Assembly: GCF_004005375.1 (NCBI RefSeq)
Contig: NZ_RZUF01000009.1
Span: 1 to 64,000 of the forward strand
Length of the DNA stretch: 64,000 bases
From: Rheinheimera sediminis
GTDB lineage: Bacteria > Pseudomonadota > Gammaproteobacteria > Enterobacterales > Alteromonadaceae
Direction of reading: 5' to 3'
Part shown: positions 52,487 to 64,000 of the stretch, piece after piece
Position numbering within the stretch: position 1 is the first letter of the stretch
Layout: every line of letters starts with the position of its first letter
Program-made: the position numbers and the translations under genes
The notes under the pieces: generated by a model
What the model saw: the letters and a program-made list of their open reading frames with translations, nothing else
What the model was told of the DNA's origin: nothing
Database searches by the model: none

Positions 52487-54406
52487 ATGTTAAGAGTGTT
52501 ATTTACAGCTGCTGTACTGTTGAGTCCTTTGGCTCATGCTGATGTTCGTCTGCCTAAGTTGATCAGTGATGGTATGGTGTTACAGCGTGATACCCAGATC
52601 CCACTTTGGGGTTGGGCCGATGCAGGCGAAGCCGTTGAAGTGCGTTTTAATGGCCAGTTAGTAGGGCAGGTCAAAACAACACAGGGTCGCTGGTTACTGC
52701 AATTACCAGCGCAGCAAGCCGGTGGGCCACATCAACTCAGTTTTAAAGGCCGCAATCACATCGAACTGAAGGATATTTATTTTGGTGATGTTTGGGTGGC
52801 ATCCGGCCAGTCCAATATGGAGCTGGAAATGGCTCGGGTGGCTGAAGCGTATCCTGAAGATTTACAAAGCGCCAACTATCCACTGATCCGTCAGTTTAAA
52901 GTGCCGCAAGAGTATAACTTCAAATCACCACAACAGGATTTCAGCGGCGGTGAATGGGTTGCCGCCAGCCCAAAAAGCATTGACAACTTCTCTGCTTTGG
53001 CGTTTTATTTTGGCCGTGAACTGTTTCAGCATAACGGCGTGCCTGTTGGCATTTTAAATAATGCGCTGGGCGGCTCGCCTGTCGAAGCCTGGATGAGTGA
53101 ACAGGCTTTGCAGCCTTTTCCAGAAGCTTTGGCTGAAGGGAAAAAGTTTCGTGATGACAAGCTGATCCAGTCCATCAGTGCGGCAGATAAAAGCAAAAAT
53201 GAGCAATGGTATGGCGATTTACAGCGCCGAGACCCGGGTTTAACCAGCAAAACGCCCTGGTACAGCGAAACTTTGGATGACAGCAGCTGGCAGAACTTTA
53301 GCGTGCCAGGCTTCAGACCAGAGCCTTTTACCGGCGTCTGGTGGCTACGTAAAACTGTTGAGCTGACCGCAGCACAAGCTGCAGAGGCGAGGATTTTACG
53401 GCTAGGCTCGATAGTGGATGCCGATGAGGTCTATATCAATGGCAAGCAAGTGGGCAATACCACTTATATGTACCCGCCTCGTCGTTATGAATTGCCTGCC
53501 GGAGTGCTAAAAGCCGGTACTAACCTGATTGCGGTGCGTGTTACCTCGACCAACGGCAAAACAGGTCTGCTCCCTGACAAGCCTTATTGGATAGGCACTG
53601 ATGCCAATCCGCTGCCACTGACTGGCCAATGGAAAATGCAAACCGCTGCTTTGGCTAAAAATTTGCCGGGTGATACTTTTATTCGCTGGAAACCTTTGGG
53701 TTTATACAATGGTTTATTGGCGCCTCTGACCTCTTTGCCGATTAAAGGCGTGATCTGGTATCAGGGCGAATCTAATGTGGGTGCTTACGCTCAGTATCAA
53801 CAACGTTTTACCGCGATGATCAGTGACTGGCGCGCCAAGTGGGCGCAAGGCACAGGGCAGCAAAATCAATTTCCATTTTTATTTGTGCAGTTGGCTAATT
53901 ATCTGGAAAAAACGCCAGAACCTGTAGAAAGTGCCTGGGCAGGTTTACGTGAAGCGCAGCGGCAAAGTTTATCTGAAGCCAATACGGCTATGGTGGTAGC
54001 CATCGACAAAGGTGAATGGAATGATATTCATCCGGTCGATAAAAAAACCTTAGGCCAGCGGCTGGCATTAGCAGCCCGTGCTGTGGCTTTAGGCGAAAAG
54101 GTCGGGTATCAAGGGCCTGAACTGGCGTCTGTAATGGCTGAAGGCTCGCAACTGAAACTCAGCTTTCATCACAGTGGTAAAGGCTTAGTGCTGAAAGGTT
54201 CAGGCAATAGCTTTGCGATAGCAGGAGCCGACGGTCAGTACCTCTGGGCGCAAGTGCAGCTAAAGGATAATCAGTTGCTGTTATCCCACCCTGATATCCA
54301 GGTTCCGGTTAAAGCGCGTTATGGCTGGGCCGATAATCCGGAGGCTGTGCTTTATAACAGTGAAGGCTTACCAGCTGGGCCTTTTGAAGCCACAACAACT
54401 AAATAA
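52487..54406 (+). CDS. SIAE/CE20-like carbohydrate acetylesterase
   Basis: This 639-residue exported protein (signal peptide LFTAAVLLSPLAHA) has the sialate O-acetylesterase architecture. An N-terminal beta domain (LISDGMVLQRDTQIPLWGWA) precedes an SGNH hydrolase with nucleophile Ser109 in ASGQSNMELEM, which is interrupted by a jelly-roll insertion of about 140 residues (WYSETLDDSSWQNFSVPGF). The hydrolase resumes with GVIWYQGESNVG and the Asp513/His515 pair in NDIHPVDK. Family CE20 members deacetylate xylo-oligosaccharides, fitting the locus. ATG 52487 has AAGGA 7 bases upstream; GTG 52481 is too close to it. Separation from the GH3 gene by a MITE-like element suggests it needs its own promoter or read-through. 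Confidence 0.88.
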   Translation: MLRVLFTAAVLLSPLAHADVRLPKLISDGMVLQRDTQIPLWGWADAGEAVEVRFNGQLVGQVKTTQGRWLLQLPAQQAGGPHQLSFKGRNHIELKDIYFGDVWVASGQSNMELEMARVAEAYPEDLQSANYPLIRQFKVPQEYNFKSPQQDFSGGEWVAASPKSIDNFSALAFYFGRELFQHNGVPVGILNNALGGSPVEAWMSEQALQPFPEALAEGKKFRDDKLIQSISAADKSKNEQWYGDLQRRDPGLTSKTPWYSETLDDSSWQNFSVPGFRPEPFTGVWWLRKTVELTAAQAAEARILRLGSIVDADEVYINGKQVGNTTYMYPPRRYELPAGVLKAGTNLIAVRVTSTNGKTGLLPDKPYWIGTDANPLPLTGQWKMQTAALAKNLPGDTFIRWKPLGLYNGLLAPLTSLPIKGVIWYQGESNVGAYAQYQQRFTAMISDWRAKWAQGTGQQNQFPFLFVQLANYLEKTPEPVESAWAGLREAQRQSLSEANTAMVVAIDKGEWNDIHPVDKKTLGQRLALAARAVALGEKVGYQGPELASVMAEGSQLKLSFHHSGKGLVLKGSGNSFAIAGADGQYLWAQVQLKDNQLLLSHPDIQVPVKARYGWADNPEAVLYNSEGLPAGPFEATTTK

Positions 54407-54410
54407 ATCC

Positions 54411-54441
54411 GCAGGGGCGGGGTTTATCTCCGCCTGTCTTG
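54411..54441 (+). repeat. REP-like element
   Basis: GCAGGGGCGGGGTTTATCTC followed by CGCCTGTCTTG, a degenerate copy five bases after the esterase stop. Confidence 0.7.
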
Positions 54442-54527
54442 AATTCAAAATCGATAGAGATCGGGTGTATCCGCCTCCTTCGGTTGGGATAAATCCTCCA
54501 CAAATGGCGATACAATCCATGATCAAG

Positions 54528-54557
54528 GGTAGGGGCGGGGCTTGTCCCCGCCCGTTT
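54528..54557 (+). repeat. REP-like element flanked by direct repeats
   Basis: GGTAGGGGCGGGGCTTGTCC followed by CCGCCCGTTT. The 8-base sequence CATGATCA occurs on both sides, at 54518-54525 and 54558-54565. Confidence 0.8.
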
Positions 54558-54611
54558 CATGATCACCCAGTAGTAGTGGAAAGAGCCGAGACAAGTCAAG
54601 GCCCTTAGCTG

Positions 54612-55289
54612 TTATAACGGGTCAATAAAACTACTAATTGTTAACCGACCCAACCTCGGGTCGGCTGACAGACTGGTTTCTTTGGTAATCATGCCACTGT
54701 GCAGTAGATGGCGGCGGTATACAATAAGCCTGTTAAATACGCCAGGTTGCTGTGCAATCTGTTCAAACAGCGGTGTATCACTCTGGATGTAACCGTCAGT
54801 CACTTTGGGCAGGTCAGGGCCGTGGTTTTCACTTTCCAGTGAGCGGTAATATTCTTTGGTGCGGCTTTGATCTATGCACTCAAAACCGGTTTTTCGATGC
54901 CGGTAAAATGCAGTTCCACCCTGATTACCCTGAAATAAATAATGCACGGCAGCCAAAGCGTGTTTTTCTGTGGTATCAAAATGTGGGATACGTTGCAGTA
55001 GTTTGAGCTGCGCTGGCGGCGTAGTTACCAGCGATAAATGGCAGACGGAAAACTTGAGTGAGCTGGCGGGTAGCTCAAAGTATTCAATCAAAGTGTCTTG
55101 CAGACTCTGCAGCATAAACTGGCGGTAAGCTGCAGGTGCTGCGGCCCTCAGGCCAGGATAATAAGGCGAATTGGCCAAAAACTGCTGACCAGCCGCAAAG
55201 TCCACCAGACTTTGTGGCTCTGGAACAAAGTTATCTACTACTAAAAGTGGATTCAGTTCCTGACCTATCGTCAGTCTGCTGATCTGCAT
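54612..55289 (-). CDS. DUF6445 protein, probable Fe/2OG-type oxygenase
   Basis: This 225-residue cytoplasmic protein belongs to the DUF6445 family that accompanies tryptophan-halogenase-like genes. It is paralogous to the gene at 62809, sharing LLVVD(N/D)F(V/I)P, IPHFD, GGTxFYRHR, DTPLFE, FNRL and LHSG. The spacing of His103-x-Asp105, His197 and Arg215 matches the HxD...H...R arrangement of Fe(II)/2-oxoglutarate oxygenases of the prolyl-hydroxylase class. That reading is my inference. Its start lies three bases after the halogenase stop, so it is the last gene of the receptor operon. The substrate is unknown. Confidence 0.85.
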   Translation of the reverse strand: MQISRLTIGQELNPLLVVDNFVPEPQSLVDFAAGQQFLANSPYYPGLRAAAPAAYRQFMLQSLQDTLIEYFELPASSLKFSVCHLSLVTTPPAQLKLLQRIPHFDTTEKHALAAVHYLFQGNQGGTAFYRHRKTGFECIDQSRTKEYYRSLESENHGPDLPKVTDGYIQSDTPLFEQIAQQPGVFNRLIVYRRHLLHSGMITKETSLSADPRLGRLTISSFIDPL

Positions 55290-55292
55290 GGA

Positions 55293-56774
55293 TCAGCTCA
55301 AATTTGATGGGCAATAGTGCCGAATAAAATCACGGTGTGAAGGTAATCGGTCTACAGCACCTTGAATAGTCTGACGTATGTTGTGCAGATGGCTGCTCAA
55401 CTCGCCTTGTGCCAAGGCTGCGACTAACTGATGATAACCCTTAGGCTGCAGTCGTTGTCCCAGCATCACATGGCTCCAGGATTCCAGCCGGAACATTTCG
55501 TCGCCTGTCTGAAAAGCGTGGGCGCTTTCTTTAAATAACTCAATACGATGAGCCAGCGTATCCGGAATACTCATAGTGCGGCAATAATTCCAGAACGGAC
55601 TGTCAGTTCGCTCTGTCTGGTGGTAATGCAAAATAATAAAGTCGCGGATTTTTTCCACTTCAGTGATGGACTGCTGGTTGTATTCATCCGTGAGAGCTGG
55701 TGTTACGCCATTAAAGGGGAACAGCCGCAATAAGCGGATAATACCACTCATAAACAGGAAAATACTGGTCGATTCCAGCGGTTCAATAAAACCACTGGAT
55801 AAACCAATAGCAATGCAGTTTTTATTCCAGAGTTTTTTACGCCTGCCGGTCTGATAACTTAGCATCCTGGGTTCCATCAGCGGCGCAGTTTCCAGATTGC
55901 CGAGCAAACGTTGTTGCGCTTTTTCATCTGACAGGTAGTCGCTGGCGTAAACCAGACCGTTGCCTACTCTGTGCTGCAAAGGGATACGCCATTGCCAGCC
56001 GCTGTCATGCGCCATAGCTCTGGTATAAGGCGGTAAGGTCGCTGCAGATTCAGTTTGCACTACCACAGCTTTATTGCAGGGTAACCAGTGATCCCAATGT
56101 TCGTACCCTGTTTTTAAAGTTTGTTCGATCAGCAAAGCTTTAAAACCTGTACAGTCGATAAACAAATCGGCGCTGATTTCCTGCCCCGATTCCAGTACTA
56201 ACGATCGGATGTCGCCATTGACATGCTGTTGTACCTGCGCAATTTTGCCTTCGATCCGCACAGCACCTAAATCTTCGCTGAACTTTCGCAGAAAACGGGC
56301 ATAACGGCCAGCGTCCAGATGATACGCGTAGTTGATACTGGACTTGTCCGATTTACCAAACTTATGCAGTTTGGCCGCTTGAAGTTCATAGCAGTAGTCG
56401 CCAAAAGGAGCGTCAACTCCTTGCTGTAAAGCGTGTAGATAATAATGTTGAAAGTCGGTTAAAAAACTACCTTTGCCCGTGACACCAAAAGGATGGAAAT
56501 ACTGATCGCCTGTCTGGCCCCAGTTTTCAAAGGAAATAGCCAGTTTAAAGGTCGCATCTGTCGCTTGCATAAACTCTTGTTCGTTGATGCCCAGCAAGTT
56601 ATGAAACAACAGCACTGGAGGTACAGTAGATTCACCTACACCTACAGTGCCAATTTCTTCTGACTCAATCAGCACTACCTCAACCAGACCTTTCAGCCGT
56701 TTCGATAACGCAGCTGCGGCGACCCAACCTGCGGTGCCGCCTCCTGCTATCACTACTTTTTTTACCTGTTGCAT
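55293..56774 (-). CDS. Tryptophan-halogenase-family flavin enzyme
   Basis: This 493-residue member of the flavin-dependent halogenase family has an FAD loop (IAGGGTAGW, 9-17), GVGESTVPP, the catalytic-lysine region ATFKLAISFENW with Lys77 (Lys79 of PrnA), the family motif GWQWRIP at 259-265, and GFIEPLESTS at 328-337 with the active-site Glu334. All hallmarks of an active halogenase are kept. Family members bromi/chlorinate tryptophan or indoles using FADH2, halide and oxygen. Copies next to TonB-dependent receptors have no settled natural substrate. A strong AGGGGA site supports the start. No flavin reductase gene is visible nearby. Confidence 0.92.
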   Translation of the reverse strand: MQQVKKVVIAGGGTAGWVAAAALSKRLKGLVEVVLIESEEIGTVGVGESTVPPVLLFHNLLGINEQEFMQATDATFKLAISFENWGQTGDQYFHPFGVTGKGSFLTDFQHYYLHALQQGVDAPFGDYCYELQAAKLHKFGKSDKSSINYAYHLDAGRYARFLRKFSEDLGAVRIEGKIAQVQQHVNGDIRSLVLESGQEISADLFIDCTGFKALLIEQTLKTGYEHWDHWLPCNKAVVVQTESAATLPPYTRAMAHDSGWQWRIPLQHRVGNGLVYASDYLSDEKAQQRLLGNLETAPLMEPRMLSYQTGRRKKLWNKNCIAIGLSSGFIEPLESTSIFLFMSGIIRLLRLFPFNGVTPALTDEYNQQSITEVEKIRDFIILHYHQTERTDSPFWNYCRTMSIPDTLAHRIELFKESAHAFQTGDEMFRLESWSHVMLGQRLQPKGYHQLVAALAQGELSSHLHNIRQTIQGAVDRLPSHRDFIRHYCPSNLS

Positions 56775-56815
56775 TGTCTGTCCCCTGTCATTTTTATAAT
56801 TTTTTTAGCTGTTGA

Positions 56816-57862
56816 TCAGCGATTGAGCCTGTTCAAAAGCATGGCGCGCAATTGTCTGGCTTGCATTTCGTCCAGCTCACCCAACACACCACGGGCCTGT
56901 TCCGGCAGGTGTTGTCCAGCCTTTTTCGGGTCATCAAAAATATAATGATTCAGCACAGCCTGCCAGGCTTTGCGTTCATGTTCTGGTTTGTCACGCAGGC
57001 ATAACAAGGCGTGATACAACAGATTCATACCTGAACCTGTGTAGCGAGGTGCTGTGCTCCACCAGTAGTTGATCAGGATATTAAAGGAGCTTAAAGCTTC
57101 CACCTGATGCCACCACATACTGGGCAAATACAGCGCATCACCGGGCTCAAGTTCAGCAATTTGTCCTGCCGCTATAGCTTTTGGAAAGTCAGGAAAACGC
57201 TCTAAGTCAGGTTGTTCGAAATCCACCATGCTAATCACCTGGCCACCTGGTGTCGGCTCTAAAGGCCCCGGGTATAAATGGCTGATTTGATCAGGTGGGA
57301 ACAAAGTGAAGCGGCGTTTACCCAGCACACAACAGGCCAGGTTTTCTGAAGAGTCATAGTGGCAGGCTGACAGTGACTTATTGCCCAGCCAGATACTGAC
57401 TCTGTCAGGTTCTGTTTCATAGCTAACAACAGGTTTAGGTAACTGAATATCGTTATACTGCCGTAAGGTTGGAAAATGAGTACTTAGTAAATTGGAGGCA
57501 ATATAAGCAGAAGGTGGTTGGTCTTGATCTTGCCATTCTAAGAGTTGTTGCAGCACCTGATCGACCTGGCCCAGCCGGGTTTCATAGTTGAGTTTGCTGC
57601 AGCTTTCGTCATAGAAATAACGGCCATTCAAGCCTGGCTCGCCGTAATAAATCTGAGTGGTTTTACCGTTGTAGTGGCTACAGAGATAATCCACCACTGC
57701 AGCTGAACCTTGTTGCCCTAGTTGCACTAAAGGCCAGTGACTGACCAGACCTTTAAGGATCACAGGTTCAGCGCCTGACAATACTTCAGGCGGGATCCCC
57801 CCGCTTTGGCAGTAGACAGTTTTGGTCTGACGTGTAATGTGCTGCATAGCCTTATCCGTCAT
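56816..57862 (-). CDS. JmjC/cupin_8-like oxygenase
   Basis: This 348-residue protein has the FIH-like cupin_8 pattern: EPVILKGLVSHWPLV, SIWLGNKSLSACHYD with His168 and Asp170, CCVLGKRRFTLFPP, GPLEPTPGG, LEPGDALYLPSMWWHQVE with distal His252, and FNILINYWW. The His-x-Asp...His triad indicates an Fe(II)/2-oxoglutarate oxygenase, a class that hydroxylates proteins or small molecules. The gene overlaps the SapC gene by four bases (ATGA) and lies upstream of the halogenase in one operon. Its substrate is unknown; the target may be shared with the halogenase. Confidence 0.9.
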   Translation of the reverse strand: MTDKAMQHITRQTKTVYCQSGGIPPEVLSGAEPVILKGLVSHWPLVQLGQQGSAAVVDYLCSHYNGKTTQIYYGEPGLNGRYFYDESCSKLNYETRLGQVDQVLQQLLEWQDQDQPPSAYIASNLLSTHFPTLRQYNDIQLPKPVVSYETEPDRVSIWLGNKSLSACHYDSSENLACCVLGKRRFTLFPPDQISHLYPGPLEPTPGGQVISMVDFEQPDLERFPDFPKAIAAGQIAELEPGDALYLPSMWWHQVEALSSFNILINYWWSTAPRYTGSGMNLLYHALLCLRDKPEHERKAWQAVLNHYIFDDPKKAGQHLPEQARGVLGELDEMQARQLRAMLLNRLNR

Positions 57863-58599
57863 TGCTGGCTCTGCAGGCTATTTTTTCGCTCTATTAAATG
57901 GCGAATATTGCCCATTGAAAACACCATGGCGTAAATCAGCGCTAAAAAGCCGGACTGCTGTAGTCTGGCAAGTGCCTCTGCAGGCAAAGATGCCAGCCGT
58001 TGTTCATTAATGCAGTAATTGCCCAGCAAGCGGATTTTATCGCCATTCTGCAGAGCAAATTCAATGGTCACGCTCTCCACCAGCTCCAGTTGTTCCAGAG
58101 CAGAATAAAAAATGGCAGCTAGAGCTGTACCTTGGTGGATAGTTTGCAGCCGGGCTGAAATATGTTCCAGATAAGGGCTGTTGCCACCTTGGGATAAAAA
58201 CAATTGCTGGCCTTGTTCTGTGCTTACCTTAGGGTGACTCATATCAATATGCACCACAGCGTTTGGTTCTTCTTCCTGCATCCCCATGGAGCGCTGGAAG
58301 CCAATCAAAAACGGACCTTTTTCAAGGCTGGCCGGAATATAACGTGCATCCCATCCTATGGGGTGCTGCTCGTTCAGGTAGAGGTTTTCTTCTTTGGAAA
58401 AACCTAACAAAGCTATGGCCTGGTAGGACCCCTGTGGGTCGTCTTTTCGCAGCAGTATGGGGTATTCTTTTTGCAGTTCAATAAACTCAGTGGGGAACAC
58501 CAGAGCGCTGGGTACATTGTCGCCAAACTCAGGCCCAAAGTAGTGGATAACGCGGTTATTTTGATGATCGATATTATTCAGTAACACATGCCTGGTCAT
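57859..58599 (-). CDS. SapC-family protein
   Basis: This 246-residue cytoplasmic protein has the SapC pattern: ALVFPTEFIELQKEYPILLR, FSKEENLYLN, YIPASLEKGPFLIGFQ and VHIDMSHPKVSTEQGQQLF, ending in a short helical tail. SapC proteins were named from a Campylobacter surface-array locus but have no established biochemical role. Beside TonB-dependent receptors they recur with cupin and halogenase genes, as here. AGGA lies 8 bases before ATG 58599. It overlaps the cupin gene and follows the receptor gene across a REP-like tandem array. Confidence 0.88.
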   Translation of the reverse strand: MTRHVLLNNIDHQNNRVIHYFGPEFGDNVPSALVFPTEFIELQKEYPILLRKDDPQGSYQAIALLGFSKEENLYLNEQHPIGWDARYIPASLEKGPFLIGFQRSMGMQEEEPNAVVHIDMSHPKVSTEQGQQLFLSQGGNSPYLEHISARLQTIHQGTALAAIFYSALEQLELVESVTIEFALQNGDKIRLLGNYCINEQRLASLPAEALARLQQSGFLALIYAMVFSMGNIRHLIERKNSLQSQQ

Positions 58600-58695
58600 A
58601 TTATTAATCCTGTGACTTCTTAGGTATCAGCATGTACAGCAGAGCAGGGAAAAGCTGCATAAGCAACTTTTCCCTGTTTATCTTTGTCGTTTAGT

Positions 58696-58878
58696 CGGGC
58701 TAAGCCCGTTCTAAACCATGTTATCGTCCAGACGGGCGGACAAGCCCCTTCCAAACCGTGTTATGGTCCAGACGGGCGGACAATCCCCTTCTAAACCGTG
58801 TTATCGTCCAGACGGGCGGGGACAAGCCCCTTCTAAACCGTGTTATGGTCCAGACGGGCGGGGACAAGCCCCGCCCCT
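58696..58878 (-). repeat. Tandem REP-like array (about 4.5 units)
   Basis: Units of about 40-42 bases, read on the plus strand as CGGGCGG(GG)ACAAGCCCCT then TCTAAACCGTGTTATSGTCC, repeat without variable spacers. The last unit ends as the standard REP (GGACAAGCCCCGCCCCTAC) touching the stop codon of the receptor gene. The array lies between the receptor and sapC. Confidence 0.92.
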
Positions 58879-58879
58879 A

Positions 58880-61800
58880 CTAGAACTGGTAACGCATACC
58901 TACCTGATAGCGAGCACCTAAGTCAGTCAGATACCACAACATGGCTTCGTTACGGGCGTGAGAGCGACTGTTTTCACCTGTCAGATTCAGCGCTTCAATA
59001 GAGACCGTCAGTTGCTCGTTAACATCGTAGCTAACGTTGGTATCAAGTTGCCAGTAAGCTTCTTCAAAGCGTGGATTGTTCGAGCCGCCTTTGTTTACTT
59101 CGGCTAAATACTTGTCACGCCAGTTCCATGCCACCCGGGCAGTCCAGCCATCTTTTTCGTAGATACCAATCAGGTTGGCTGTGTCGCTCAGGCCTAACAG
59201 TGCAAACTGAGATTGGCCTGGATCCGCTGCGACGTTAAAGCCAATATCACCTCGAACTAAGGTGTAGTTAGCCTGCACACCAAAACCTGTTTCACCGAAG
59301 AAATGCTGAATAGCCAACTCTGCACCGTGTATTTTGGCGGCTCTGTTGTTATCAGGTGTGCTGGTGCGGAACACCATTTCTGGATCATCCGGGTTGGCTA
59401 TTAAATCAAAACCTGCGTTGTTAGCGAGGAAGTCAATTTGTTCAGGTGTACCAGTAAATTGAGGATTAGCACCAAATTTGGCAATCATATCCGGATGATT
59501 ACGGTATTCAGTAAATACCATCATGGCATAAAGATAAGTGTCATCCAGTGGGAACCCTGCATCTCGCACCGCTTGCGCCGCAGCTATGGCACGCGGACCT
59601 CCTGTGACATCAAGAATGCCCAGTAGAGGCTGATCTACCTGGCGACTACCGATAAAATTCACTACGTCTTTTTGGAATAAACCTGCCGACATATAGCTGC
59701 CATTGTCGTAATACCACTCTAATGACAAGTCGTAGTTAGAGGATTCCAGCGGCAATAAACCAGGGTTAGAAGCGTTCGCTGTAGGTTGAGCACCCAAAAG
59801 TGTTGAACCACCGCCGCCGCCAAAGTTAGAAGCGGATACACCTAAGCTACCTAAACCGGCACGGGCAATAGTTTTACTAAAGGAGAAACGACTTATCACA
59901 TCATCACTCAGATGCAAGGTAAAATCTAAACTTGGTAACAGGTAGTCATAGCTGTTTTTAGCACCAAAAGGTTGTGCTGGAGTAGTGCTATCTGCATAAG
60001 CAACAATATCATTGTTGTCTTCCCAGCGGAAAAATGTTCTGCTGACCAGCGAGCTGGACTCAGATTCAGTTTCCTCGTAGCGCAAACCTGTTAACACATC
60101 AAAAGGCATTTTGCCGATTTCACCAGCTAAAGCCACCTGGAAATAAGCAGCCATTGTATCTTCTTTAACAAGATTATCAGCAGAATAAGTTGTTTCAGAG
60201 GCTGTTGGAATGCCTGGATACAAACCCAAAGCTGCAGTGTACAAAGCGCGTGGGTCAGCTATAAAACCGTAACCGCCAGGTAAGGTTTTATAGTCATCAA
60301 ACTCACCCGGTAAATCAAAAGGTTGGATCAGATTACCAAACTCACCTGGGTTGCCTACGTTCCAGTTACCTAAGGCTATATTATTACCCGCCGTCTGCAG
60401 GGTGCGGGATTCCATATTACGGATTTCAACACCAAAGTCGAAATGGCCATCGTCAAGCGCATATTTTGCATCCAGCTTAAATTGCTGAATATCACTTTCC
60501 TGACTGGCGTTACGAATACGGGCAATAGAAGAACCTACATCACCGGCATCGACCAAACCATTAGCATTGGCACCTTTACCTGGAGCTGCATCGTTATACA
60601 CGTTCAGATAGGTAGGTAAATCAGCACCCCAAAACCATTCACGGGATTCGACGATAGGAGCACCTAAACCTACAGCCAGTTCACCTGAGTTACGTGGGCC
60701 TGTGCCGCGGCTGTGCATCTTGGAATCATGAGCATCAAATTCCAGAGTCAGGTCATCACTGACCAGATACTCAAAATTTACACCGACAGATTTCAAGGTA
60801 TTGGTTTGCTCACGCCATTGCTGCTCGTAACCTTCATCTACAGTGCTGGCATATTCTTCTTTAATGTATGTAGGGGTTTTAACAATATTGTTATCAAATT
60901 CAACTTCTTTGATGTTATTGCCAGTTTGCACCCAGTTGGTGATCTCACCACGATGTTCAACTATGTTATTTTCGGCGAACGTATAGTCACCAGTTGCGGT
61001 GAATTTTTCTGTAGGTCTGAATTGCAAGGTCAACTGAGCGTTGTCGCGTTCCCGCTCTGAGTTCGAAAACGCATAACGAATATCGTTCGGGCGGGTATAC
61101 AACTGACCTTGAGCTGGTGCGTTTGTCACCTCTGTATTTGGATTGTTCCAGAGTCTGCCCGGGGATGACAGATCGTCCCAGTAGCCAACCTGCCAGTCAT
61201 TGACCGTGGCGCCAGTGTAACCTGAATCCCGTTGCTGATGGCTGGCAGAGACACTGACACCAAATTTATCGTCCGCAGTGACGTGGCTGAAAATACCCGA
61301 CAGTTCAGGGGTGATATCGTCGCCCGTTCTGTTGGTGGTGTCATGTGCCGCTTTGACACCTATGCTGGCTGCGCCGGCTGGATTCTCTAATGGGCGGTTC
61401 GTTTTGATATTCAGAGTGGCACCTATACCACCTGTCGCAATATTGGCTTTGCCTGTTTTATAAACTTCAACACCACTGATACTTTCAGAAGCCAGATTGG
61501 AAAAGTCAAAAGCGCGAGAACTACCACCACGGCTGGTGCCGTCAGCACCTGAACCTGCAGCATACGTATTAGCTGCTGGCATAGTACGGCCGTTTAGCGT
61601 GACCATGTTATTGTCAGCACCAAAACCCCGTACTGTCACTTCAGAACCTTCACCATTGGTGCGGCTGATAGACACACCTGAGATACGTTGCAGAGACTCT
61701 GCCAGGTTGGTGTCCGGGAACTTACCTATATCTTCTGCAGAGATGGCGTCTACCACCCCCATTGAATTTCGTTTAATTTCAGCTGCCTGTTGCAGACTGG

Positions 61801-61960
61801 AGCGTACGCCAAAAACAGCAATAACTTCGACAGGTGCAGTTTCTGTTGCTTTGGTTTCTTGTGCTTCCTGTGCATAAAGTGGCAATACAACAGTGCCACT
61901 GAGTAGCAGGGTGACAGCCCTGGCTACTGCGGTTTTGGTAAAAATCTTATTATTGTTCAT
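58880..61960 (-). CDS. TonB-dependent receptor, carbohydrate type
   Basis: This 1026-residue outer-membrane receptor has a signal peptide (AVTLLLSGTVVLPLYAQ). A TonB-box-like segment (PVEVIAVFG) leads into the plug with RNSMGVVDAISAEDIGKFPD, NLAESLQRISGVSISR, VTVRGFG and GGIGATLNIKTNRP. The large barrel ends in YQVGMRYQF. This wording is typical of the Xanthomonas/Caulobacter-type receptors (TIGR01782 group) that import oligosaccharides in polysaccharide-utilisation loci, so a xylo-oligosaccharide substrate is likely by context. The GAGGG site supports the start. It leads an operon with SapC, cupin, halogenase and DUF6445 genes. Confidence 0.94.
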   Translation of the reverse strand: MNNNKIFTKTAVARAVTLLLSGTVVLPLYAQEAQETKATETAPVEVIAVFGVRSSLQQAAEIKRNSMGVVDAISAEDIGKFPDTNLAESLQRISGVSISRTNGEGSEVTVRGFGADNNMVTLNGRTMPAANTYAAGSGADGTSRGGSSRAFDFSNLASESISGVEVYKTGKANIATGGIGATLNIKTNRPLENPAGAASIGVKAAHDTTNRTGDDITPELSGIFSHVTADDKFGVSVSASHQQRDSGYTGATVNDWQVGYWDDLSSPGRLWNNPNTEVTNAPAQGQLYTRPNDIRYAFSNSERERDNAQLTLQFRPTEKFTATGDYTFAENNIVEHRGEITNWVQTGNNIKEVEFDNNIVKTPTYIKEEYASTVDEGYEQQWREQTNTLKSVGVNFEYLVSDDLTLEFDAHDSKMHSRGTGPRNSGELAVGLGAPIVESREWFWGADLPTYLNVYNDAAPGKGANANGLVDAGDVGSSIARIRNASQESDIQQFKLDAKYALDDGHFDFGVEIRNMESRTLQTAGNNIALGNWNVGNPGEFGNLIQPFDLPGEFDDYKTLPGGYGFIADPRALYTAALGLYPGIPTASETTYSADNLVKEDTMAAYFQVALAGEIGKMPFDVLTGLRYEETESESSSLVSRTFFRWEDNNDIVAYADSTTPAQPFGAKNSYDYLLPSLDFTLHLSDDVISRFSFSKTIARAGLGSLGVSASNFGGGGGSTLLGAQPTANASNPGLLPLESSNYDLSLEWYYDNGSYMSAGLFQKDVVNFIGSRQVDQPLLGILDVTGGPRAIAAAQAVRDAGFPLDDTYLYAMMVFTEYRNHPDMIAKFGANPQFTGTPEQIDFLANNAGFDLIANPDDPEMVFRTSTPDNNRAAKIHGAELAIQHFFGETGFGVQANYTLVRGDIGFNVAADPGQSQFALLGLSDTANLIGIYEKDGWTARVAWNWRDKYLAEVNKGGSNNPRFEEAYWQLDTNVSYDVNEQLTVSIEALNLTGENSRSHARNEAMLWYLTDLGARYQVGMRYQF

Positions 61961-62808
61961 CTATCCATACCCTCTTGATTTGTAATAGTCACCTGAATTA
62001 AACAGCGTTTCCTCTGCATGGGACTGAGAGCTCTTGTTATGGCTCTGCAATTCCCAAAAGGGCAATACTCGTTGTACTTGAAGCTACAGCTTTGTTAGCT
62101 GCGCCTTTTAGCCCCAGTCACATAGCTTGACTATGCTCCCCGGGTCTCCTTGGTTTGCCGCCTTCCTGCAACTTCAAGTTACTTGAGTATCTAAAGCCTT
62201 CGAGGTGCAATACACCTGCAAAAAGCCTTTATGCTGTTTATTTGTTAAGGTGCTGAACGTACCGGCTTTCTCCACTTTCGCGCCGAATGGCCAACTCCCC
62301 AAGATGAATTGTAGTGACTGGACAAAAAATATAACCTTGCCAAAATGCGTTAAGCTTTTGCTTTTTTTTGCATTTCTTCGTTTGATCAATGCAGTCAGCT
62401 GTAATTGAACCTGAGTTCTGGAGAATGAGTGCCGAATAGAATGCATTTAATTCTACAAATCATATAGATAAGCTAATTCATATAAGAGCTTTAAGCCTTC
62501 ACTGCCTGAATGTGCAGTTTTTTTGTGGGTCTCAATAGGCTTGGCCGCACGCCATAACAAGCTGGGGCGAGACGGAACAACCCAGCTCGGTTCGAACAGA
62601 GATTCCTGCAATCAGCTGCTTAGCCCTATTTCAGATGATGTGAGCTGGTGGTGCTGGCCTGTGTTGTGGGCTGTTGTGTCGCTGCTTCATCAGCTAATGT
62701 GGCCTAAAGCTGAACAGATCATTGGTGGCGAGTCAGTCTGGCCTCTGAGCCCTTTCCCGAATAAAGCGCAACACGAGCTGCCGATCCGTGAGATGTGTTT
62801 CGTTTGCG
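61961..62808. other. Long upstream region of receptor operon
   Basis: These 848 bases carry no gene I can support; short frames on either strand look random. The region contains a MITE-like repeat at 62065-62190. The receptor promoter must lie here, but I could not single out a convincing promoter or operator. Confidence 0.6.
62065..62190. repeat. MITE-like repeat, copy 3
   Basis: Terminal arms ATACTC...ACTTGAAG at the left and CTTCAAGT...GAGTAT at the right bound 126 bases. The core AGCCCCAGTCACATAGC with ACTATGCTCC is nearly identical to that of copy 1 at 29921. Confidence 0.82.
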
Positions 62809-63495
62809 TCAAATCTTTGCCGCAGACAGAAAAGATGCGATGGTAAAACGCCCTGAACCCGGATTCAGATCGTATTTATAATCGGGCTTGATATCGCCTG
62901 AGTGTAAAGAGGAGCAGCGGTACAGTACCAGACGATTAAAGCGGGCTGGCACCGAAGCAATCACTTCAAACAGTGGCGTGTCACCACAAATGTAGCCCTT
63001 AGGGATACCATGCTTATGAAAGTCAGCCTGTAGCGCTTGCTGATAAGAATCCTGACGTTCTGGCGTAATAGCCTCATAAGCTGTACTGCGATGCCGATAA
63101 AAACTGGTGCCGCCATGGCGTTCATCACATAAATAATAAATAGCCGCCAGTTCATCAGGACAAGGCCGATCAAAGTGGGGAATAGACTGCATAGGCGATA
63201 ATTCTGCCGCCGGAGTACTGACCAGGGAAAAGTAGCTTTCAATCTGCTGCAGTTGGGTCGGATCCAGAGCAAAACACTGCTGCAGTGGTTGAGCTAAATA
63301 CTGCAACAGGTAGGAGCCAAAAGCCGCCGGTGCAGTGGAACGTAAACCCGGGTACAAGCCTGCCGCCTGTCTGACATCTGCTTGTTGCAAGGCATACTGG
63401 ATCAGTTGCTCTGGTTGTGGAATAAAATCATCTACCACCAGCAGCGGCTGTTGCTGCTGGCCTATCCGGCTAAACCTCAGTCTAGGCTGCCTCAT
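62809..63495 (-). CDS. Second DUF6445 protein
   Basis: This 228-residue paralogue of the 54612 gene keeps the same landmarks: LLVVDDFIPQPEQL, YPGLRSTAPAAF, SIPHFD, GGTSFYRHR, GDTPLFE, FNRLVLYR, LHSGDI and GRFTIASF. The HxD, LHSG histidine and GRFT arginine are conserved, supporting the same inferred Fe(II)/2-oxoglutarate chemistry. The ATG overlaps the stop of the upstream halogenase gene by one base (TAATG), so the pair is translationally coupled. It is followed by about 850 non-coding bases before the receptor gene. Confidence 0.85.
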   Translation of the reverse strand: MRQPRLRFSRIGQQQQPLLVVDDFIPQPEQLIQYALQQADVRQAAGLYPGLRSTAPAAFGSYLLQYLAQPLQQCFALDPTQLQQIESYFSLVSTPAAELSPMQSIPHFDRPCPDELAAIYYLCDERHGGTSFYRHRSTAYEAITPERQDSYQQALQADFHKHGIPKGYICGDTPLFEVIASVPARFNRLVLYRCSSLHSGDIKPDYKYDLNPGSGRFTIASFLSAAKI

Positions 63496-64000
63496 TAATA
63501 GATTTTTCCGGCTTTGCAGTTCTGATCAATAAAACTTTGATGCGACGGCATATAGTCGACAGATTTACGGACCACACTGCGAATCCCCTCCAGCCGTTTT
63601 GCCAGCTCAGCTTCAGGGAACAAATCGGCCATAGGGTGATAGCCTTGTGGTGTTATGCCTTGACCCAGCATGACTTCAAACCAGCTCAAGTCGCTGAACA
63701 TTTCATTGTTAAAACGGAAGATACGACCATTGGCCTTAAATTGTTGGATTTTTTGGCTTAGTTCATCCGGCACTGGCATAGTGCGGCAATAATTCCAGAA
63801 CTCTGAATCATTGCGCTCTGTGGCATGGTAATGCAGGATCAGGAAATCCCGGATCTTGTCATAATCAAAATGCATCTGACGGTTGAATTCGTCTATATCA
63901 CTTTGGGCAAAATTCCGATCGGGGAAAAAGCTAAAGAGTTTAGAAATAGTGGCCTGCACCAAATGCAAACTGGTGGATTCCAGTGGTTCCATAAAGCCAC
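63495..64000 (-). CDS. Second tryptophan-halogenase-family protein (partial)
   Basis: Only the C-terminal 168 or so codons are in the window; the frame continues past 64000, and the ATG at 63992 is an internal codon (GFMEPLESTS). It matches the other halogenase from GFMEPLESTSLHL (active-site Glu region) through KIRDFLILHYHATERND, FWNYCRTMPVPDEL, a conserved LSWFEVMLGQGI segment and a C-terminal MPSHQSFID. It is a distinct paralogue rather than a recent copy, as many positions differ. The FAD domain cannot be judged. Confidence 0.9.
   Translation of the reverse strand, partial: GFMEPLESTSLHLVQATISKLFSFFPDRNFAQSDIDEFNRQMHFDYDKIRDFLILHYHATERNDSEFWNYCRTMPVPDELSQKIQQFKANGRIFRFNNEMFSDLSWFEVMLGQGITPQGYHPMADLFPEAELAKRLEGIRSVVRKSVDYMPSHQSFIDQNCKAGKIY

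Follow-up and report, generated by a model that had tools for sequence, protein, structure and literature searches.

Which molecule do the modifying enzymes encoded behind a TonB-dependent receptor gene of Rheinheimera sediminis act on? The window analysed here, the first 64,000 nt of contig NZ_RZUF01000009.1 on the forward strand, carries a minus-strand operon (operon 1, Table 1) that is transcribed in the order receptor, SapC-family protein, Cupin_8 oxygenase, flavin-dependent halogenase (of the HalA type) and DUF6445 oxygenase, the two oxygenases belonging to Fe(II)/2-oxoglutarate (2OG) families. An original prediction, made from the sequence letters, had placed these five genes here and inferred a multi-enzyme module acting on one target, and Pfam matches agree with its gene assignments and their order. 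Our analyses indicate that the module recurs across genomes together with receptors. We consider it somewhat probable that its enzymes modify the receptor polypeptide itself, in the cytoplasm and before export.

The cassette and its copies in one genome

The enzyme genes of operon 1 are closely packed. The Cupin_8 and SapC genes overlap by 4 nt, the halogenase and Cupin_8 genes are separated by 41 nt, and the DUF6445 and halogenase genes by 3 nt. A second halogenase/DUF6445 pair had been predicted just upstream; it is present, its two genes overlapping by 1 nt, but it is not free-standing, being the tail of a second receptor operon (operon 2) that continues past the window edge. Below, C90 denotes the window's own contig with the same numbering, other C-numbers denote contigs of the same genome, and L-numbers label the compared loci from this and other genomes. 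Both receptors pass the TIGR01782 model (648.9 bits in operon 1 and 632.2 in operon 2, with a cut-off of 310). Of the three halogenase genes in operon 2, the middle one is degenerate (110 bits against PF04820), with the flavin adenine dinucleotide (FAD) motif, the catalytic Lys and the catalytic Glu all lost. Three consecutive halogenase genes likewise stand behind a receptor at L052, in another genome of the family.

Genome-wide, the profiles match 13 times for PF04820, four times for DUF6445, five times for SapC and 63 times for receptor plugs. The 13 PF04820 matches are 11 full-length genes (>400 bits), the degenerate operon 2 copy and a weak match (31 bits) on contig C16, in an open reading frame (ORF) that faces a receptor near the contig end. 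In ORF maps, the 12 halogenases (11 intact plus the degenerate copy) form eight clusters, and every cluster immediately follows a receptor gene of the same strand. Contig C46 carries an exact repeat of the five-gene architecture of the window. A second halogenase type, HalB, is missing from the window and C46 cassettes; by PF04820 score, HalA mostly lies at 570-657 bits and HalB at about 360-446 bits.

Recurrence across genomes

Co-occurrence of the families was examined in 119 genomes of the order, with at most 12 halogenase candidates scored per genome, so that copies may be missed. A full-length halogenase was found in 30 genomes, SapC in 28 and both in 24 (Fisher p 1e-15), while full-length DUF6445 was present in seven, all of which have halogenase and SapC. 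With the architecture also recurring on C46 and in other genomes, the association that the original prediction had proposed to survey is not random. The same-strand upstream neighbour was a receptor for 90 of the 114 order-level halogenase ORFs by script and for five more by eye (L084, the two HalB of L122 and two of L125); the receptors of L084 and L122 were confirmed by Pfam and that of L125 was called by similarity. Six of the 114 ORFs run off an edge, and one gene, the first halogenase of operon 2, entered the set a second time in a form truncated at the window edge. The full order receptor-HalB-SapC-Cupin_8-HalA-DUF6445 was found at four order-level loci (L053, L068, L076 and L086), and the same order, with HalB and DUF6445 optional, is met again in Alpha-, Beta- and Gammaproteobacteria.

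Named genomes were scanned with the HalA profile, and the best 80 of 585 confirmed matches were kept, a choice that favours close relatives of the query. An upstream receptor was present at 63 of these 80 loci, 57 by script and six by eye (L223, L234, L244, L251, L256 and L262). The rest comprise a split receptor (L255), nine loci that run off an edge and seven that are taken up below. In the named loci, the median SapC-Cupin_8, Cupin_8-HalA, HalB-SapC and HalA-DUF6445 gaps are 1-15 nt, values somewhat understated because the earliest start codons were assumed; 46 of the 62 adjacent receptor-HalB and receptor-SapC gaps are at most 150 nt and 16 are longer. With gaps this short between enzyme genes, a precursor gene could hardly be hidden there. 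Inside the cassette we saw no small, conserved gene of the precursor type known from ribosomally synthesised and post-translationally modified peptides (RiPPs), and the short ORFs in the gaps of the window were judged implausible by eye.

Enzymes and receptors also segregate as pairs. Taking only the first HalA or HalB of each cassette, halogenase distances within genomes follow receptor distances, with a rho of 0.604 for HalA (41 pairs, permuted mean 0.17) and 0.781 for HalB (39 pairs, permuted mean 0.19), and neither value was reached in any of 2000 within-genome permutations. Halogenase and DUF6445 copies correlate as pairs as well, a relation that the original prediction had suggested checking (Mantel rho 0.63, n=20, reached by 0 of 2000 permutations).

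Cassettes serve more than one type of receptor: TIGR01782 receptors, another TonB receptor and outer-membrane barrel ORFs. At L122 a non-TIGR01782 TonB receptor lies beside a prolyl oligopeptidase gene, and an ORF of 261 aa separates this receptor from the halogenase. OMP_b-brl_4 barrel ORFs, seen as C-terminal parts only, occur in Xanthomonas and Pseudoxanthomonas genomes (L309 and L307), and a similar ORF at L308 had no Pfam match.

That the enzymes act on a different protein, secreted or at the surface, in place of the receptor is rather unlikely. Some halogenases lack an adjoining receptor and some SapC genes stand alone, one of them (L134) adjoining a 2786-aa ORF on the opposite strand, as this explanation would allow; against it, the other neighbours differ from locus to locus, and by eye in ORF maps no other gene recurs inside the cassette.

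The halogenases

HalA of the window has the features of a flavin-dependent halogenase (GGGTAG for FAD, K77, E334 and WQWRIP) and is 87-88% identical to halogenases of R. oceanensis and R. pacifica. The catalytic residues, which we take to be the PrnA-type Lys and Glu, are nearly invariant: the Lys is kept in 56/58 HalA and 54/54 HalB, and the Glu in 55/58 HalA and 54/54 HalB. The last position of the WxWxIP motif is Gly in 31/54 HalB. The closest solved relatives of the window HalA are Xcc4156 (6y1w, E 2e-169), then 9luq and then BrvH (6frl). Like Xcc4156, relative to which an alignment read by eye shows no insertion in either loop region, it has no long substrate-closing loop of the kind found in free-tryptophan halogenases. 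Loop lengths vary among the cassette enzymes, with six more residues in loop 1 in 34/58 HalA and, in loop 2, three to five more in 50/54 HalB and 28 more in four.

In the available parts of the literature, Xcc4156 and BrvH are described as having short substrate loops (PMC7336383) and a substrate site that is open, and peptides are put forward by their authors as possible substrates (PMC7336383, PMC5945002). The same sources report halogenation of indole or indole derivatives in vitro and no halogenation of free tryptophan, so that a role in free-tryptophan metabolism, the outcome that would have spoken for an unrelated function, is not what the closest characterised relatives indicate. What BrvH and the Xanthomonas halogenases act on natively is described there as unknown (PMC7336383). 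A gene 88% identical to Xcc4156 was found behind SapC and Cupin_8 genes in Xanthomonas hortorum (L222), in a stretch that ends before any receptor; that genome has three Xcc4156-like halogenases.

Two further explanations turn on these properties. The flavoenzymes could act on the receptor as Trp-hydroxylating monooxygenases and not as halogenases, in the manner of QhpG, which, from the accessible text, dihydroxylates a Trp of QhpC, a protein processed before its translocation to the periplasm (PMC7876137). QhpG, LodB and GoxB are flavoenzymes that act on a protein residue, as is proposed here for HalA, and QhpG is by analogy a precedent for flavoenzyme modification of a periplasm-bound protein. 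These enzymes differ in that they hydroxylate to build a quinone cofactor, and their models match the window HalA weakly, at 26-35 bits against cut-offs of 240-400. As the halogenase Lys and Glu are nearly invariant and the closest relatives reportedly halogenate indoles, we regard this explanation as improbable.

The product might instead be a small signal or defence compound, halogenated or hydroxylated, with the enzymes placed near receptors through co-regulation with feeding. This would agree with the in vitro activity of Xcc4156 and BrvH on free indole or its derivatives and with the seven receptor-less HalA loci among 80. It sits poorly with 11 intact copies in eight clusters, each with its own receptor, and with pair-specific inheritance across genomes, and we give it little credence.

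The oxygenases and SapC

The description of the module as a halogenase with two Fe/2OG oxygenases tied to a receptor is supported, for the oxygenases, by the conserved metal sites. In Cupin_8 the iron triad H168, D170 and H252 (HxD...H) is invariant in 15/15 aligned copies, and the best profile matches are FIH (E 9e-29) and JMJD5 (E 1e-24), with JMJD7 also similar. All three are eukaryotic protein hydroxylases. In DUF6445 the HxD...H triad (H103, D105 and H197) and the 2OG-binding Arg (R215) are invariant in 12/12 aligned copies. The AlphaFold2 (AF2) model of DUF6445 (mean predicted local distance difference test, pLDDT, 92.4) matches HygX, SnoN and PHD2 in Foldseek with probability 1.00, and 126 PDB entries match at E<=0.001. 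Template modelling (TM) scores are about 0.4-0.57 among the matches listed, and the 50 listed fold matches are various 2OG oxygenases plus two uncharacterised proteins. The model thus predicts that DUF6445 folds as a 2OG oxygenase.

SapC also gave a confident AF2 model (pLDDT 96.2). Its fold search returned no usable match in the PDB (best E 0.13) or among viral models (best E 0.15), and its sequence had no PDB match at E<=1; some of the weak PDB fold matches are winged-helix proteins (probability <=0.21), for which a recognition domain resembling that of RiPP systems is one conceivable reading. The S-layer family name gives no function here, and we propose that SapC is a scaffold or substrate-recognition subunit.

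Neighbouring genes and the imported nutrient

The original prediction had named the receptor, a surface polymer or an aromatic decoration of xylan as the target. In the window, operon 1 adjoins a xylan locus (GH10, GH43, two GH3, an SASA esterase and sugar transporters), and its orthologues in Rheinheimera (L183 and L184) have nearby ORFs that by eye look like this esterase and a GH3. Aromatic esters can occur on xylan. In 18 hand-picked loci, the neighbours include GH13, pullulanase-type, GH36, GH20 with a BadF/BadG-family kinase, agarase-CBM proteins, GH97, GH30, GH1, GH94, sodium:solute symporters and peptidases. They indicate unrelated substrates, namely maltodextrin, alpha-galactoside, chitin/N-acetylglucosamine, agar, beta-glucan and peptides, with xylan at the window. 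Since the nutrients are chemically unrelated, a shared nutrient aromatic is unlikely and the receptor is the common partner; of the three targets named, the receptor is therefore favoured and the other two are not supported. That the imported glycan or its aromatic group is modified in the cytoplasm is thus very doubtful, despite the xylan genes, because the cassette also lies beside genes for glycans that have no aromatic group and because a shared aromatic would make a separate enzyme copy for each receptor needless.

Proposed mechanism

From the gene content and order, their conservation, the intact catalytic residues and the co-segregation with receptors as pairs, we infer that the enzymes act on the receptor, whose gene heads the operon. 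The enzymes would stay in the cytoplasm; none of the four has an N-terminal signal peptide visible by eye, and contact with the receptor would therefore precede its export. One or more halogenases, with FADH2, O2 and halide, would halogenate an aromatic side chain of the still unfolded receptor, most likely a Trp. Cupin_8, and DUF6445 where present, would hydroxylate side chains of other residues (Asn, His, Asp or Pro), and the receptor may be held or recognised by SapC. Once modified, the loops would lie at the ligand-binding mouth and could tune ligand binding, stability or phage recognition.

A wider proposition is put forward tentatively, as somewhat less than an even chance. It holds that dedicated enzymes beside each receptor halogenate and hydroxylate extracellular loops of TonB-dependent receptors of Proteobacteria, that bromo- or chlorotryptophan at the mouth of the receptor belongs to ordinary glycan uptake or protects against phages, and that the BrvH/Xcc4156 group natively acts on the adjacent outer-membrane receptor.

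Candidate residues in the receptor

Receptor columns were compared at the order level in 63 of 66 cassette receptors, the low-scoring L064, L122 and L125 being left out. The controls were 15 non-adjacent receptors of the same subfamily from the same genome (HMM score >300), after a cut-off ORF (L170 at 2) was dropped; four short receptor genes of this genome (C42, C1:186483, C7:82458 and C24:96210) fall outside the set. The only Trp column conserved in more than 70% of the cassette receptors was Trp343 (W343) of the operon 1 receptor, found in 45/63 compared with 3/15 controls. From strand lengths, W343 would lie in a long extracellular loop; no homologous solved receptor was found against which to check this placement. 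In a set separate from that used to choose it, W343 was present in 63/63 named cassette receptors, and it was found in 15/44 further controls without a halogenase nearby, among which L271 at 2 is a fragment, L021 is faced by an ORF with a weak PF04820 match and L270 ends at a contig end. The totals are 108/126 cassette receptors and 18/59 controls. By locus content, W343 is present in 70/70 receptors with Cupin_8 and in 38/56 with a halogenase but without Cupin_8.

In the loop preceding that of W343, an N280-x-P282 motif marks the main HalA clade, with N in 97% and P in 91% of Cupin_8 receptors.

Several observations weigh against the receptor as substrate or against these residues. W343 is missing from 18/126 cassette receptors, among them the receptor of operon 2 itself, which has Glu there, and the L018, L085, L094 and L098 group, which has HalA and HalB. 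It is kept in 6/6 close relatives without an adjoining cassette (L263, L265-L268 and L021). In a tree-corrected test of dependence on the halogenase (dependent vs independent evolution), with the halogenase state set unknown for L270, L021, L276 and L271 at 2, the W343 column ranks only 13th of 229 (likelihood ratio, LR, 13.8). Among the 33 aromatic or His columns it is second to Y296. The 63 named receptors were selected by HalA similarity and include the near-duplicates L192/L193 and L183/L184. N280/P282 is kept in five receptors without Cupin_8 and DUF6445 (L114, L188, L201, L215 and L258). More generally, many similar receptors in the same genomes have no such enzymes, and pair co-segregation is also expected if operons duplicate as units for whatever reason. 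No receptor lies directly upstream on the same strand for 13 of the 114 order-level halogenases (L054, L057, L061, L062 twice, L083, L088, L090, L100 twice, L119, L121 and L139), three of which (L057, L119 and L139) have one close by, and seven of the 80 named HalA loci have no receptor. SapC stands alone in at least 15 loci, L081 and L096 carry DUF6445 with no halogenase in the run, and a modified receptor was not found in the literature searched.

We therefore rejected W343 as proof of the target, given its retention in related receptors that have no cassette and a signal that is moderate once the tree is taken into account. It is retained as a lead, a candidate target whose distribution in the receptor sequences is partly explained by ancestry. 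N280/P282 was likewise not upheld as the target of Cupin_8 or DUF6445, because receptors without those genes keep the motif.

Loci that depart from the cassette

The cassette-less close relatives (L021 4750-7713, L263 and L265-L268) form a natural contrast group; a GH16 protein is encoded upstream of the receptor at L263 and a CBM_4_9 protein at L266. HalA has no upstream receptor at L196, L199, L205, L225, L233 and L254, and L242 is a cassette without a receptor; four of the receptor-less loci are Cellvibrio or Cellvibrionaceae records. Such HalA genes may act in trans or on something else. SapC without a neighbouring halogenase or receptor was seen at L059, L073, L089, L091, L097, L099, L102, L109, L120 and L133-L138. 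At L272 (2442-6402) the receptor is directly followed by Cupin_8, with no halogenase in the stretch examined, an arrangement that may separate the Cupin_8 and halogenase activities. At L061 (5343-13534) DUF6445 and HalA share a run next to a sodium:solute symporter gene; no receptor stands between them or immediately precedes HalA.

Relation to known systems

MibH serves a small lantibiotic precursor. The cassette differs in that it has no visible precursor gene and that its proposed substrate, the receptor, is about 1000 aa long. The closest characterised solved relatives, BrvH and Xcc4156, differ in having been studied in vitro on small indoles. TIGR01782 receptors belong to carbohydrate utilisation loci, and the model, which the receptors of both operons pass, is not about modification. 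Halogenase, SapC and cupin genes have reportedly been noted beside TIGR01782-type receptors in Xanthomonas and Caulobacter, and our literature search returned no such report. A Caulobacter genome used as a control matches the SapC family; the PF04820 control match is less specific. The likeness of MibH-type enzymes to the proposed cassette is that, as far as the consulted portion of the source goes, they halogenate Trp only inside a peptide (PMC5945002); the identity between Xcc4156 and MibH is given as 26% in the available text of PMC7336383.

The BrvH paper mentions neither TonB nor SapC; the Xcc4156 paper, which was not searched for SapC, mentions neither TonB nor receptor; and TonB, SapC, cupin and receptor are all absent from the text of PMC8269204. 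A link between halogenases and virus-host receptor interactions has been raised as speculation in a metatranscriptome comment (PMC11337851), which in its available part differs from our proposal in describing no gene cassette and naming no receptor gene beside the halogenase. No description of the cassette was found in a literature search whose coverage, partial for the sources retrieved, lacked most subscription journals, so an earlier description is possible. A search on bromotryptophan and the outer membrane, judged by titles and the starts of abstracts, returned nothing on outer-membrane receptors. The gene neighbourhood itself may already be known. The elements that seem novel are the complete cassette with its gene order, its inheritance pair by pair, its occurrence with unrelated nutrients and receptor types, and a testable claim on the native substrate of this halogenase group.

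The way the genes are arranged directs attention, for each of these halogenases, to one specific protein. Should the proposal hold, halogenation would be a common modification of transporter proteins in the bacterial outer membrane. This would matter for how environmental bacteria take up glycans, for how phages adsorb, and for enzymes able to halogenate large proteins. Halogenation of the receptor, if shown, would define a new kind of protein-modifying enzyme set.

Features of the locus

Table 1. Positions of the features of operons 1 and 2 (window numbering; C90 continues it past the window edge)
Feature	Position	Strand	Length	Basis or remark
Operon 1, DUF6445 Fe(II)/2OG oxygenase, prolyl-hydroxylase-like fold	54612..55289	-	225 aa	PF20043, E 1e-77
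Operon 1, flavin-dependent halogenase, HalA type	55293..56774	-	493 aa	PF04820, E 3e-186
Operon 1, Cupin_8 Fe(II)/2OG oxygenase, FIH/JMJD5-like	56816..57862	-	348 aa	PF13621, E 2.5e-73
Operon 1, SapC-family protein	57859..58599	-	246 aa	PF07277, E 6e-63
40-bp tandem repeat between receptor and SapC genes	58702..58872			TRF; 4.2 copies
Operon 1, TonB-dependent receptor, TIGR01782 (TonB-Xanth-Caul) subfamily	58880..61960	-	1026 aa	Pfam Plug and barrel; TIGR01782
Candidate site Trp343, operon 1 receptor	codon 60932-60934			computed by hand from gene end
Operon 2, DUF6445 oxygenase, last gene	62809..63495	-	228 aa	Pfam, E 5e-76
Operon 2, HalA halogenase, 3' end in window	63495..64000	-		whole gene C90 63495-65003
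Operon 2, degenerate halogenase-like gene	C90 65011-66393			= L014 5012-6394
Operon 2, third halogenase	C90 66399-67943
Operon 2, receptor	C90 68041-71418		1125 aa	TIGR01782

An Rfam scan of positions 54000-64000 gave no riboswitch or RNA feature at the gathering threshold. A promoter scan gave no useful signal (seven sites compared with 12.1 expected), and terminator-like sites numbered 19 compared with 9.9 expected, most of them within genes. The receptor-SapC gap of operon 1 is 280 nt long and is mostly taken up by the GC-rich 40-bp tandem repeat. A 14-mer associated with the tandem repeat, GTCCAGACGGGCGG (<=2 mismatches), occurs four times in the window compared with 0.19 expected. The repeat could set expression ratios, or it could be a mobile repeat.

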